Source: Bacillota bacterium
GTDB lineage: Bacteria; Bacillota; Bacilli; Alicyclobacillales; SLC66
NCBI GenBank assembly: GCA_026627345.1
Contig: JAPNUP010000100.1
Coordinates: forward strand, 1-43,382
Direction: 5' to 3'
Length of the DNA stretch: 43,382 nt
Shown here in pieces: positions 13,049-34,843 of the stretch. Within the stretch, counting starts at the first letter, position 1; each line of letters begins with the position of its first letter. The translations under genes were made by a program, and so were the position numbers. A model generated the notes under the pieces. That model saw only the letters and a list, made by a program, of their open reading frames with translations. It did no database searches and was not told the origin of the DNA.

Positions 13049-13185
13049 AAAAATAGGCCCCTTTCTAATGCCTCCGAGGTTAGTTGTCGGGTTAGGGCTG
13101 AAAGGTAGCCCCTCTGAAAAATACAGATTCACCCCAGGTGTTTCGTCCCCCGTACTGAGTAGAGCCACTCAGATTCGGCTTTATC
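13047..13185 (-). promoter_or_regulatory. Cyclic di-AMP riboswitch (ydaO/yuaA type) before the NlpC/P60 gene
   Basis: On the minus strand the roughly 140-base leader holds the conserved ydaO pieces in order: GCCGAATCTG, ACGGGGGACGAA, TGGGGTGAATCTG, and GCCCTAACCCGACAAC followed by TAACCTCGGAGGC. Family knowledge: this motif binds c-di-AMP, turns expression off, and very often precedes cell-wall hydrolase genes. The expression platform is visible: GGCTACCTTTC (13110-13100) can pair with GAAAGGGGCC (13065-13056), with one bulged A, followed by TATTTTTTT, a terminator. The AAAGGGG ribosome site lies within the 3' arm and the TTG start directly after the T run. Confidence 0.88.
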
Positions 13186-13196
13186 ACTCTACTCGT

Positions 13197-19063: not shown

Positions 19064-19135
19064 GCCACTCATACTCTTGGTTACTCTCGCATACCTATCA
19101 ATAGAGTTGCGAGAATGGCAAGAGAGGTGAGTGGC
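19064..19135 (+). repeat. 72-bp nested inverted repeat covering the ribosome site of the next gene
   Basis: Three perfect arms lie in register: GCCACTCA (19064-19071) with TGAGTGGC (19128-19135), CTCTTG (19074-19079) with CAAGAG (19119-19124), and TCTCGCA (19085-19091) with TGCGAGA (19108-19114). The 3' side contains the AGAGAGG ribosome site at 19121-19127. There is no T run, so it is not a standard terminator. Confidence 0.9.
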
Positions 19136-19136
19136 T

Positions 19137-19664
19137 GTGTCTGTTTGGTCGCCTGTACCGCCGACAGTCCGTCAAAGGATTGAACGTTTCGCGCAGCGCA
19201 GTGTGCACTTGCCACATGGACTGCAAAAGACAATCGCTGTTTTGGCTTTTTTGACCGTAGGGTTGCTCTTTTTAGGCGGTGGTAGCTTCGTCATCGCAAG
19301 CTTGATGCATGCTGTCGTCACGAAACTCGATATGCCACCGACGATACAAGGACCTATCTACATCACGGGAAGTCAAGTGCGGGCATCAACCGGTCAAGGC
19401 GTGATCATCCACGAAAATGCCAAGGGACAAGCCCCTGCCACGTATATTGTGGTGCCGCGTCCGACTTTGTCCCACTCCCTGGACCATGCGCTTGTTACGA
19501 TGAAAAACCCGACCGGTACGTTTGTGCAGATGGACGCGGTAGACGTCGGTTTGTTTCTTCAGCAGAGTGTCCACCAGTGGTTGCTCGGTCTGTTCTCGGA
19601 CGCCACGAGAGCTTCGGTGCCTGCGAGTCCGGCTGTTTCCATACCGCTGACGGATGGACAATGA
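19137..19664 (+). CDS. Single-pass membrane protein of unknown function in the spoIIP/yqxA position
   Basis: A 175-residue protein lying between gpr and lepA. A basic N-terminal part (about 35 residues) is followed by one transmembrane helix (IAVLAFLTVGLLFLGGGSFV) and an outside domain of about 120 residues beginning DMPPTIQGPIYITGSQVRAS. I see no SpoIIP amidase motif and the length is less than half of SpoIIP (about 400 residues). The GTG at 19137 lies 9 bases after AGAGAGG; a GTG at 19131 is too close. The start is overlapped by a long hairpin. It could be a diverged YqxA-like or SpoIIP N-terminal-like protein, but this is unproven. Confidence 0.75.
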   Translation: MSVWSPVPPTVRQRIERFAQRSVHLPHGLQKTIAVLAFLTVGLLFLGGGSFVIASLMHAVVTKLDMPPTIQGPIYITGSQVRASTGQGVIIHENAKGQAPATYIVVPRPTLSHSLDHALVTMKNPTGTFVQMDAVDVGLFLQQSVHQWLLGLFSDATRASVPASPAVSIPLTDGQ

Positions 19665-22880: not shown

Positions 22881-22907
22881 TTAGCACTCATCTGTATCGA
22901 GTGCTAA
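22881..22907 (+). promoter_or_regulatory. CIRCE operator (HrcA binding site)
   Basis: TTAGCACTC (22881-22889), nine bases, GAGTGCTAA (22899-22907), a perfect CIRCE element. HrcA encoded directly downstream should bind it and repress the operon until heat shock. Confidence 0.98.

Positions 22908-27727: not shown

Positions 27728-27731
<4 letters not shown>
27681..27731. terminator. Bidirectional terminator shared by dnaJ and mug
   Basis: TTGAAAGAAGAAGGCGGG (27681-27698) is perfectly complementary to 27714-27731, and the stem extends inwards (GCC with GGC). Both sides have an A/T-rich outer part that gives pyrimidine-rich runs in either direction. It includes the mug stop codon at 27728-27730. 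Confidence 0.85.
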
Positions 27732-29445
<1,714 letters not shown>

Positions 29446-31331: not shown

Positions 31332-32756
31332 TTGACGACTGACCAAGCCATAGCGGCGACGGCGAAGACCGTGGCCTTTCATACGCTCGGGTGCAAAGTC
31401 AATCACTATGATACCGAGTCGATTTGGCAACTGTTTGCGCGCGCCAACTATCGGCAAGTCGACTTTGACGATACAGCTGATGTGTATGTGATCAACACGT
31501 GTACAGTGACCCAAGAAGGCGATCGCAAGAGTCGACAGATGATTCGCCGAGCCGTACGCCGTAACCCCGAAGCGACGGTGGTTGTGACAGGTTGTTATGC
31601 GCAGATGGCGCCAGGCGAAATCCTCGGCATTGATGGGGTTGACCTCGTGGTGGGCAATCAGGATCGAACCCGGTTGCTTGAGTGGATTGAGCAGGTCCAG
31701 GCTGAGCGTAAACCCTATAACGCGGTACACGAGATTCTCAGTTCGCGGGAATTTGAAGATATCGATGTACCGATGTTCACGGATCGCACGCGCGCTTCTT
31801 TGAAGATACAAGACGGATGCAATCACTTTTGCACGTTTTGCATTATTCCCTATGCGCGTGGGCTTGTGCGCAGCCGCAGACCAGGGAGTGTCATGCGCCA
31901 GGCGCGCAGACTGGCGGACGCAGGTTACCACGAGATCGTACTGACAGGCATTCACACGGGCGGTTACGGTGAGGATCTTCAAGGCTACACGTTAGCCGAT
32001 CTGATTCGCGAACTCGAAGCGATCGAGTCGCTGCGTCGTGTTCGCATCTCGTCGATCGAGGCGAGTGAGATCACCGACGATCTGATAGCGGCGATGGGCG
32101 CTTCAACGAAAGTGTGTCATCACCTGCACATTCCCCTGCAAGCGGGACACAGTGAAGTGCTGCGTCGGATGAATCGTCACTATACCATTGAGCAATATGC
32201 GGACACATTGGCTAAAGTGCGACGTGCACTGCCAGAACTTGCGATCACCAGTGATGTCATCGTCGGATTCCCCGGGGAAAGTGATGAATACTTTGCGCAC
32301 ACCGAAGCGTTCGTTCGCGATCAGGCGTTTGCGCAACTGCATGTTTTTCCCTACAGCGTGCGCAAAGGGACGCCAGCCGCCCGATTTGTCGATCAGGTGC
32401 CCGAGAACGTGAAGCAAGAACGCGTCGCACGCTTGCTCACGCTGTCGCGCGAGCTGACCGTTCGCTATGGGCAGCAGTGGCAGGGTCGCACAGTAGAAGT
32501 GATCGCGGAAGAAGAGGAGACGATCGACGGCCACACGCTGTTGGTCGGTCATGCAGATAACTACATGCGCGTCGCGTTTTCCGGTGACTCGTCACAGCTT
32601 GGCGAACTTTGCGCGGTTCGTGTCGATCAGGTCACGGCCGAACGAGCCTTTGGCACGCTAGAGCGTGTACTGACACACACAGATTTCTCGCGACTGTTGG
32701 GTGAGGATGACTCGACCCACCTGTTGACGTCAGCTGTGCGAAAAATGAGCGTATAA
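31332..32756 (+). CDS. mtaB: tRNA t6A37 methylthiotransferase MtaB
   Basis: A 474-residue radical SAM enzyme that makes ms2t6A at position 37 of ANN-decoding tRNAs. Three N-terminal cysteines hold the auxiliary cluster (TLGCKVN, NTCTVT, TGCYAQ); the radical SAM motif is CNHFCTFC. Blocks LTGIHTGGYGEDL and VIVGFPGESDEYF are typical, and a TRAM domain ends the protein. TTG at 31332 lacks a good ribosome site; initiation may be coupled to rsmE. The prmA-rsmE-mtaB order is conserved in Firmicutes. Confidence 0.95.
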   Translation: MTTDQAIAATAKTVAFHTLGCKVNHYDTESIWQLFARANYRQVDFDDTADVYVINTCTVTQEGDRKSRQMIRRAVRRNPEATVVVTGCYAQMAPGEILGIDGVDLVVGNQDRTRLLEWIEQVQAERKPYNAVHEILSSREFEDIDVPMFTDRTRASLKIQDGCNHFCTFCIIPYARGLVRSRRPGSVMRQARRLADAGYHEIVLTGIHTGGYGEDLQGYTLADLIRELEAIESLRRVRISSIEASEITDDLIAAMGASTKVCHHLHIPLQAGHSEVLRRMNRHYTIEQYADTLAKVRRALPELAITSDVIVGFPGESDEYFAHTEAFVRDQAFAQLHVFPYSVRKGTPAARFVDQVPENVKQERVARLLTLSRELTVRYGQQWQGRTVEVIAEEEETIDGHTLLVGHADNYMRVAFSGDSSQLGELCAVRVDQVTAERAFGTLERVLTHTDFSRLLGEDDSTHLLTSAVRKMSV

Positions 32757-32771
32757 AGGGGAGAGGGGATC

Positions 32772-33878
32772 ATGCAAGAGACAGTCAAAGTGGCGGGTGG
32801 CTTAGTGATTCGCCGTACGGAGACAGGCCTAGACGCGCTGATTATCGACGATCGTTTTGGATATGTGACCTTGCCCAAGGGGCATGTGGAACCAGGAGAG
32901 ATCCTTGAGGAGACAGCACTGCGCGAGATCGAAGAAGAGACTGGCATCGCATGTCGGCTACTCGCTCCATTGCAGAAGGTGACCTATGCTTTTCGCGAGG
33001 GCAAGACTGGAGAACAGCAGATGAAAGACGCCTACTATTACCTCGCAGAAGCGATCGGCGGTACTCTCAAAGCGCAGGAAGAAGAGATCAGTGCTGTTCG
33101 CTTCGTTCCCCTTGCGGAGGCGCTACGTCTGGTGGAGGCAAACGGCTATCCGAACAACCGGGAAGTGTTTGCCAAAGGGCTGGGCCTCGCCGAGGCGTTT
33201 GCCAATGGAAAGTGGAAGGATATTACAGGATTGATCGATCACACGCTTCTGAAACCGGACGCGACACCGGCTGACGTCCTACAGATCTGCAAAGAGGCGC
33301 GCGCCTATCAGTTTGCCAGTGTTTGCGTACAACCCTCCTTTGTGTCGCAGTGTGTGCAGGCGCTTGCGGGCACTCCCGTCAAAGTGTGCACGGTCATCGG
33401 CTTTCCACACGGGGCTACGACGACCACAGCGAAGGCTGCGGAAGCGCGCGAAGCCGCAGCGTCAGGCGCAGTGGAACTGGACATGGTGCTCGCCATCGGG
33501 CGCGTGATTGCCGGAGACTGGGCGTATGTGCAACGAGACATCGAGGCTGTGGTCAGTGCAGCTGGTACACAGGCGTTGGTCAAAGTCATTCTCGAGACAG
33601 GGCTGCTCACACCCGATCAGCAGGCGCAAGCAGCTAGGGTAGCCAAGCGTGCAGGTGCGCATTTTGTCAAAACGTCCACAGGATACGCCGGGCAGGGTGC
33701 AACGGTAGAGGCGGTGCGGATCTTGCGCAACAGCGTCGGTACAGAGGTGGGCGTTAAAGCCTCTGGCGGTATTCGTACACGCGCCGATGCACTGGCCATG
33801 GTGCAAGCAGGGGCGTCTCGGATCGGAGCGAGCGCTGGTGCAAAGCTCCTTAGCGAAGGGGCACAAGCCCCTTTTTAG
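32772..33878 (+). CDS. deoC: NUDIX hydrolase-DeoC (deoxyribose-phosphate aldolase) fusion protein
   Basis: One unbroken 368-codon frame encodes two enzymes. Residues 5-140 are a NUDIX hydrolase with a complete box at 37-59 (G37, then REIEEETGI at 51-59), so it should cleave a nucleoside diphosphate-linked compound. Residues 150-362 are DeoC, splitting deoxyribose-5-phosphate into glyceraldehyde-3-phosphate and acetaldehyde: IDHTLLKP, the catalytic Asp in ELDMV (D237), the Schiff-base Lys in FVKTSTGY (K300) and the second Lys in VKASGGIR (K329). A TTG at 33231 with GGAAGGA 10 bases upstream could allow separate translation of the aldolase. ATG at 32772 has GGGGAGAGGGG upstream, 15 bases after mtaB. 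Confidence 0.93.
   Translation: MQETVKVAGGLVIRRTETGLDALIIDDRFGYVTLPKGHVEPGEILEETALREIEEETGIACRLLAPLQKVTYAFREGKTGEQQMKDAYYYLAEAIGGTLKAQEEEISAVRFVPLAEALRLVEANGYPNNREVFAKGLGLAEAFANGKWKDITGLIDHTLLKPDATPADVLQICKEARAYQFASVCVQPSFVSQCVQALAGTPVKVCTVIGFPHGATTTTAKAAEAREAAASGAVELDMVLAIGRVIAGDWAYVQRDIEAVVSAAGTQALVKVILETGLLTPDQQAQAARVAKRAGAHFVKTSTGYAGQGATVEAVRILRNSVGTEVGVKASGGIRTRADALAMVQAGASRIGASAGAKLLSEGAQAPF
33856..33876 (+). terminator. Terminator inside the last codons of the NUDIX-deoC gene
   Basis: AAGGGGC (33856-33862), ACAA, GCCCCTT (33867-33873), then TTT. The hairpin ends at the stop codon, so it is itself coding (GAQAPF). It terminates plus-strand transcripts only. Confidence 0.75.
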
Positions 33879-34843
33879 TTTGACTCAGGCAACAGCCGGA
33901 CGATGCCTCGCGCGATGGCGCCGGCAAATGGGAGCGCCGCGAGCGAACAGATGACATTGAATAAGATGTGTGCGAGTGCGACTTGGGTTCCTGGCGTGTG
34001 TGCCAGTCGTGTGATGAATGCGGCGAACGGGTGAATGAACGGCAAGAAGACGAGTGCGCCTGCGACATTGAGCAGCACATGCGTTGCCGCGACGCGTTGC
34101 ACGGGTCGAGTGCCGCCGATACTCGCGAGCACGGCTGTCACGCAGGTACCGATATTGTTCCCGAGCACGATGGAAATGGCCCCAGGCAGTGATAGAGCAC
34201 CAGCTTGTGCCAAAGAGAGTGTAAGCGCGGTGCTAGCCGAACTGCTGCCGATCAGTGCCGTGACGACTGTGCCTGCTGCCACGCCGAGAAGTGGCTGATG
34301 GCTAGCCACAAGTAACCACGCTCGCAAAGTGTGCGAGGCGAGCAAGCCACCGGCTGCGTCTGACAGGATACCGAAGCCGACGAATAGCGTGCCAAATCCG
34401 GCCAGGCTGATGCACAGTGAGCGAAGGAGCGGCCACTGTCGCGGGATGCGGTGTCTTTGCAGGGCCAGGATGAGGAAGCCTGCGACCGCAATGGCGACGA
34501 CATAGGGGCCGAAGCGTTCTAGGTTCAGTGTGAGGAGCCCAACAGTCCATGTGCTGCCAATGTTCGTGCCGAGAATAATGCCGATGGTGTTCTCAAAAGT
34601 GAGCAGTCCGCTGGCGACGAGGCCCATGGACAAGACGGTAACGGCGGCACTCGACTGTGTGACGAGTGTGGCGCCTATGCCTGTGAACAACCCTCGAATA
34701 GGTGTGCGTACTAGCCGCGCAATCCACCGTTCGGCTTTGGGGCCAGACTGTTCACGCAGTCCTGCGCGAAGGGTGAAAAGCCCGAGAATAAACAGCGCGA
34801 GACCACCTGCAATACGTGTGCCAGCTATCAATACAGAAGACAA
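33875..34843 (-). CDS. Na/Pi cotransporter family protein
   Basis: A 322-residue polytopic membrane protein with two inverted Na_Pi_cotrans repeats. The signature serine motifs are TQSSAAVTVLSMGLVASGLL (first half) and IGSSSASTALTLSLAQAGAL (second half); the related blocks IILGTNIGST and IVLGNNIGTC also appear in both halves. It probably moves phosphate with sodium, though the exact substrate of this bacterial group is often unknown. There is no C-terminal PhoU domain. TTG at 34843 has GGGAGGG 8 bases upstream. Its stop overlaps the stop of the convergent NUDIX-deoC gene. Confidence 0.92.
   Translation of the reverse strand: MSSVLIAGTRIAGGLALFILGLFTLRAGLREQSGPKAERWIARLVRTPIRGLFTGIGATLVTQSSAAVTVLSMGLVASGLLTFENTIGIILGTNIGSTWTVGLLTLNLERFGPYVVAIAVAGFLILALQRHRIPRQWPLLRSLCISLAGFGTLFVGFGILSDAAGGLLASHTLRAWLLVASHQPLLGVAAGTVVTALIGSSSASTALTLSLAQAGALSLPGAISIVLGNNIGTCVTAVLASIGGTRPVQRVAATHVLLNVAGALVFLPFIHPFAAFITRLAHTPGTQVALAHILFNVICSLAALPFAGAIARGIVRLLPESN

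Follow-up and report, generated by a model that had tools for sequence, protein, structure and literature searches.

A Nudix hydrolase and a deoxyribose-phosphate aldolase encoded in one frame: a recurrent gene fusion in Bacilli

Nudix hydrolases and deoxyribose-phosphate aldolases (DeoC) are both well-known enzymes. Among the former, aq_158 of Aquifex aeolicus (3i7u/3i7v) and Ndx1 of Thermus (1vc8) share the PKGxxExGE box and a Tyr after the box with the protein described below; they are single-domain proteins, whereas the Nudix domain considered here is fused and is predicted to have Ap4A activity. Mycobacterial MutT1 (5gg5) likewise combines a related Nudix domain with a second, C-terminal domain, of the histidine-phosphatase type, whose fold differs from that of DeoC. 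The known class I aldolases (TIGR00126), such as the Geobacillus DERA 8qps and BH1352 of Bacillus halodurans (6d33), are 52-53% identical to the present DeoC and match it with a TM of 0.92-0.93 over the whole barrel, the catalytic Asp and both Lys being shared; unlike them, the present DeoC carries a Nudix enzyme at its N-terminus, and a separate start for the aldolase is not conserved in its family. Finally, the split mtaB-nudix-deoC locus of Bacilli, as in Paenibacillus cellulosilyticus (HUB94_RS01765/RS01760), has both orthologues at the corresponding place and in identical order, there as two genes with an 8-base overlap, here as one gene.

No description of a Nudix-DeoC fusion was found in the literature searched, most subscription papers being outside the scope of the search. 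The joined architecture is probably already present in databases under the deoC name.

The fused gene and its distribution

In the window (the whole stretch of 43,382 nucleotides analysed, contig 111 of a 2.76-Mb assembly), positions 32772-33878 of the plus strand are a single frame of 368 codons without a stop, from the ATG at 32772 to the TAG at 33876-33878. The 15 bases between the mtaB stop and this ATG (32757..32771, plus strand) are a purine-rich ribosome-binding region, AAGGGGAGAGGGGATC. Pfam places a NUDIX domain at residues 13-134 (32808..33173, E 1e-19) and a DeoC domain at residues 155-356 (5.8e-18); the second half also scores 262 bits against the NCBIfam deoC equivalog TIGR00126, above the cut-off of 117, and the aldolase domain as delimited by this model and by structure comparison spans residues 152-359 (33225..33848). 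The Nudix box is intact at residues 37-59 (32880..32948), reading G37-x5-E43-x7-R51-E52-x2-E55-E56-x-G58 (GX5EX7REUXEEXGU), and alignments recover all the catalytic residues of DeoC, namely D237 (33480..33482), the Schiff-base lysine K300 (33669..33671) and K329 (33756..33758). The original prediction that two complete enzymes, normally separate proteins, are fused here, with a complete NUDIX box and a complete DeoC site in one frame, is confirmed.

The whole fused chain, modelled by AlphaFold2 with 18 homologues, has a mean pLDDT of 93.5 and a pTM of 0.90. The model comprises a Nudix fold ending in a long helix (residues 127-144), a short linker (residues 145-154, 33204..33233) and the barrel, which starts at residue 155 with a strand (155-159). 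Foldseek matches the model to the DERA structure 8qps (TM 0.93 on target length, rmsd 1.2), consistent with a TIM-barrel fold. No structure covering both domains appears among the best 50 Foldseek matches, and none exceeds 0.57 when normalised on the whole chain.

The order to which the window belongs was sampled with 59 genomes; the locus was read from DNA in 56 of them, one genome (G021) being left out of the counts, and every counted fusion was re-derived from DNA by own ORF calls. Both domains lie in one frame in 55 of the 56 genomes, 15 from the window's family and 40 from a sister family. A sequencing error or chance event at the junction, which might have hidden a stop or frameshift, is excluded, the same one-frame fusion being present in all 55 (the window's genome included). 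The linker between the profile matches measures 10-13 residues in the window's family; the sister family (loci L019-L025, L117-L139 and L175-L186) has a stretch of 70-94 residues between the domains. One of the 40 sister-family fusions (G039) has a decayed DeoC, and in the 56th genome (G006) a Nudix gene with its own stop remains, DeoC being gone. Two further absences permit no claim of loss: in G002 the mtaB match runs up to the last base of its contig (143616 of 143616), and G005 yields no mtaB orthologue.

Neighbourhood, split relatives and stages of fusion

The fused gene is directly preceded by mtaB (31332..32756, plus strand; TIGR01579, 457 bits), the same neighbour as in most relatives, and is followed by a convergent gene of the Na/Pi-cotransporter family (33875..34843, minus strand; PF02690, 4.3e-48), which is conserved in the class. 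A hairpin with a T-run overlaps the last codons (33855..33874, plus strand); such matches are no commoner in the scan than in shuffled sequences, and an operon end at this place is a weak possibility. The common place of the locus in the class is rsmE-mtaB-nudix-deoC, then the convergent Na/Pi gene, and the public annotation of P. cellulosilyticus reads prmA-...-rsmE-mtaB-NUDIX-deoC-Na/Pi.

Further upstream lies hrcA-grpE-dnaK-dnaJ, where hrcA has a perfect CIRCE element (22881-22907), TTAGCACTC-N9-GAGTGCTAA. The GTG start of the longest hrcA ORF (22901) falls inside this element, hence the true start is probably further downstream. In Bacillus subtilis, prmA-rsmE-mtaB follow dnaJ directly. 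In the window, a gene of the uracil-DNA-glycosylase fold and an mnmA-like gene (assigned by eye) on the minus strand (27728-29421) part dnaJ from prmA-rsmE-mtaB; because these two opposite-strand genes separate dnaJ and prmA, heat-shock control of the fusion cannot be claimed. Elsewhere in the window, a c-di-AMP riboswitch (RF00379, 78 bits; 13054-13190, minus strand) precedes an NlpC/P60 peptidase gene. The longest-ORF start of that gene, 13168, overlaps with the riboswitch and has probably been placed too far upstream. Between gpr, the germination protease gene, and lepA, where I would expect SpoIIP from the gene order in Bacillus, an ORF of 177 aa (19131-19664, plus strand) gives no match in Pfam, and there may be a shortened SpoIIP or a replacement for it at this place.

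Outside the order, nudix and deoC are separate neighbours in 28 class genomes and fused in 5 (n=85). Homologues always encoded as two genes, which would have spoken against the original prediction, are not what is observed: within the order they are fused, although two genes are often found in other families. Widening the sample to 399 genomes of the class adds 7 joined frames from three families, each confirmed from DNA. Two more candidates, G059 (442 aa) and G125 (a 412-aa open frame), were rejected, own ORF calls giving two ORFs each. Several Paenibacillus and Thermoactinomyces loci contain a Nudix gene without an adjoining DeoC. Elsewhere in the phylum, no fusion was seen in 119 genomes, at an E-value limit of 1e-18 that may hide diverged Nudix partners, and no nudix-deoC neighbours outside the class are listed in this sample. 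Phages yield just DeoC-like or partial matches, none spanning most of the query.

On a tree of both domains together there are nine changes between the fused and the split state, at least six of which are forced by strongly supported branches, gains and losses of fusion not being separable with certainty; the fusion has therefore recurred. Judging from this tree, nudix and deoC have been joined several times independently. In one family, joined and split forms differ mainly at a single stop codon (G434, GAGGTGTCAGGGATG, vs G418, GAGGTGTAGGAGATG).

The state of the junction was assessed as the presence of a start codon with a Shine-Dalgarno of at least 5 matching bases at the deoC end, the background being taken from other in-frame positions in these genes. 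Such a start is found in 26 of 38 split pairs and in 8 of 12 fused genes outside the order. The sister family has it in 7 of 39 (background 6%), the window's family in 1 of 15 (background about 10%). That single case is the TTG at 33231..33233 in the window itself, with AAGGA 10 bases upstream, which had been proposed as a second start yielding free aldolase; the match being at chance level and without conservation, the proposal is not supported. Because the junction start is at background level in the family, the gene of the window is best read as an obligate fusion, and the TTG is unlikely to yield free aldolase.

Predicted activities of the two halves

The residues G37, E43, R51, E52, E55, E56 and G58 are found in all 106 homologues, fused or free, and also where DeoC is dead. 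The best profile matches of solved structure are the Aquifex Ap4A hydrolase 3i7u (1.6e-28) and Thermus Ndx1 (7e-21), followed by Ap4A hydrolases of human, plant-type and worm origin. A weaker profile relationship, at 5e-12, is seen to MutT1 proteins; a MutT1-like 8-oxo-dGTP phosphatase was rejected as an assignment, the score being 53 bits against an NCBIfam cut-off of 475 for a two-domain model of which the Nudix part alone is matched. Motifs after the Nudix box are described as a Tyr for diadenosine-polyphosphate hydrolases, a Pro for ADP-ribose enzymes and SQPWPFPQS for NADH enzymes (PMC5389931). After the box of the present family, neither the ADP-ribose proline nor SQPWPFPQS is found; position 72 is Tyr in 103 of 106 homologues and Phe in 3, and Y72 aligns with the Tyr of 3i7u and Ndx1, the human specificity Tyr standing in another alignment column. 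The Nudix half is closest to Ap4A hydrolases, and its substrate is inferred accordingly, with the reservation that Nudix specificity is not safely readable from sequence.

The original prediction had the Nudix half release deoxynucleoside monophosphates for disposal by DeoC. This chain is not supported, because the nearest solved relatives are Ap4A hydrolases; moreover, what DeoC needs is deoxyribose 5-phosphate, which the genome can make via pdp and deoB. The window also encodes YqeK, a symmetrical Ap4A hydrolase (TIGR00488; 8941-9513, plus strand), about 23 kb from the fusion, so that with the Nudix half there would be two enzymes acting on such substrates. In E. coli, Ap4A has been cross-linked to DnaK (PMC10148737).

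As to the aldolase half, the D/K/K residues are intact in 56 of 60 fused and in all 45 free homologues. A search for a second DeoC in the genome of the window found none, the fused domain being the sole DeoC; family searches for the pathway genes find deoB next to pdp on contig 124, with no deoC beside them. Cleavage of deoxyribose 5-phosphate by the DeoC half is predicted, and this genomic context agrees with it.

The four exceptions among the fused domains, L014 (G003), L015 (G008), L125 (G032) and L117 (G039), are dead or decayed in DeoC and intact in Nudix. Among the fused domains, catalytic lysines are lost in these four genomes only. In G003 and G008 a deoB-deoC-pdp operon contains a second DeoC, which is intact, and in G032 a second DeoC is broken across contig ends, its tail adjoining pdp; in G039, no match to deoB or pdp reaches the family cut-offs. 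The fused DeoC is dead in 3 of the 8 genomes with a second DeoC against 1 of 47 (Fisher p 0.008), an association that amounts to two or three independent events at most, G003 and G008 sharing changes. Such a pattern of loss would be expected of a fused DeoC that ordinarily works in the deo pathway.

What joins the two enzymes

With moderate confidence, the best explanation is that of two enzymes of non-consecutive reactions, inherited from an old operon and co-produced by fusion. The N-terminal half, a Nudix of the Ap4A-hydrolase type, would cut dinucleoside polyphosphates asymmetrically, e.g. Ap4A into ATP and AMP, and the C-terminal class I aldolase would end the pdp-deoB-DeoC route with acetaldehyde and glyceraldehyde 3-phosphate; one reaction probably does not feed the other. 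The fusion would have arisen from the tightly packed mtaB-nudix-deoC arrangement of Bacilli, a split pair of the ancestral type in which the two genes often overlap or the deoC ribosome site lies inside the nudix end. Loss of the nudix stop codon would have joined the frames with the deoC start at first kept, and in the order of the window this internal start would then have vanished. The likely benefit would be strict co-production together with physical stabilisation. Against mere co-production, the repeated fusion and the full-length dead DeoC domains of G003, G008 and G032 could reflect a tie, functional or structural, that goes further.

Such a tie is the main rival, because the dead domains remain full length: DeoC would serve as an oligomer scaffold or metabolite sensor, and Nudix would be tuned by deoxyribose phosphate or by assembly. 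Between G003 and G008, the lysine-less DeoC shows 2 gap columns in 217 despite saturation at synonymous sites, the whole-chain pTM would suggest a defined mutual arrangement of the domains, and the recurrence of the fusion points the same way. Yet the dead domains of this pair are 39% identical against 71% for their Nudix halves, as under relaxed selection, and the long linker of the sister family speaks against one fixed interface. Nudix genes also occur without an adjoining DeoC in the Paenibacillus and Thermoactinomyces loci mentioned above and in G006, and since the latter retains the Nudix half alone, the tie is not obligatory. On balance, a structural or regulatory tie is unlikely. Its specific form, in which DeoC senses the flux of deoxyribose phosphate from DNA breakdown and so controls, or else scaffolds, an Ap4A-type hydrolase that breaks down stress dinucleotides, would explain both the repeated fusion and the retention of dead DeoC domains, and is rather more doubtful still.

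Fusions often join enzymes of one pathway. In this light, Nudix might cut a deoxyribonucleotide-linked substrate (an oxidised dNTP, 2'-deoxy-ADP-ribose or similar) whose product leads to DeoC, and 8-oxo-dGTP phosphatases of the MutT1 type are indeed among the related structures, if at a weaker score than the Ap4A hydrolase. However, a dNMP is several enzymes short of deoxyribose 5-phosphate and there is no shared metabolite; the residues after the box fit diadenosine-polyphosphate hydrolases rather than ADP-ribose or NADH enzymes, with the difference in the human Tyr column noted above; and Nudix is kept while DeoC decays. Consecutive reactions are thus improbable. Equally so is a neutral by-product, close in-frame neighbours fusing occasionally by stop-codon loss without advantage: split pairs lie a few bases apart, G434 and G418 differ mainly at a stop codon and most fused genes outside the order retain the deoC start, but the fused state is kept across a whole order with the internal start lost, and gene order is conserved over many families of the class.

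To sum up, co-production of two non-consecutive enzymes is preferred, and the fusion links two enzymes without a known metabolic connection. Its recurrence can be seen within one bacterial class in likely stages, from a split pair through a joined frame with an internal start to an obligate fusion, and suggests some reason for the pair to be produced, or to act, together. Enzyme and evolution studies can also make use of the natural fused aldolase and of the catalytically dead DeoC domains. A functional link, should it exist, would tie the breakdown of deoxyribonucleosides to the turnover of dinucleoside polyphosphates and give a testable approach to the role of Ap4A, which is poorly understood.
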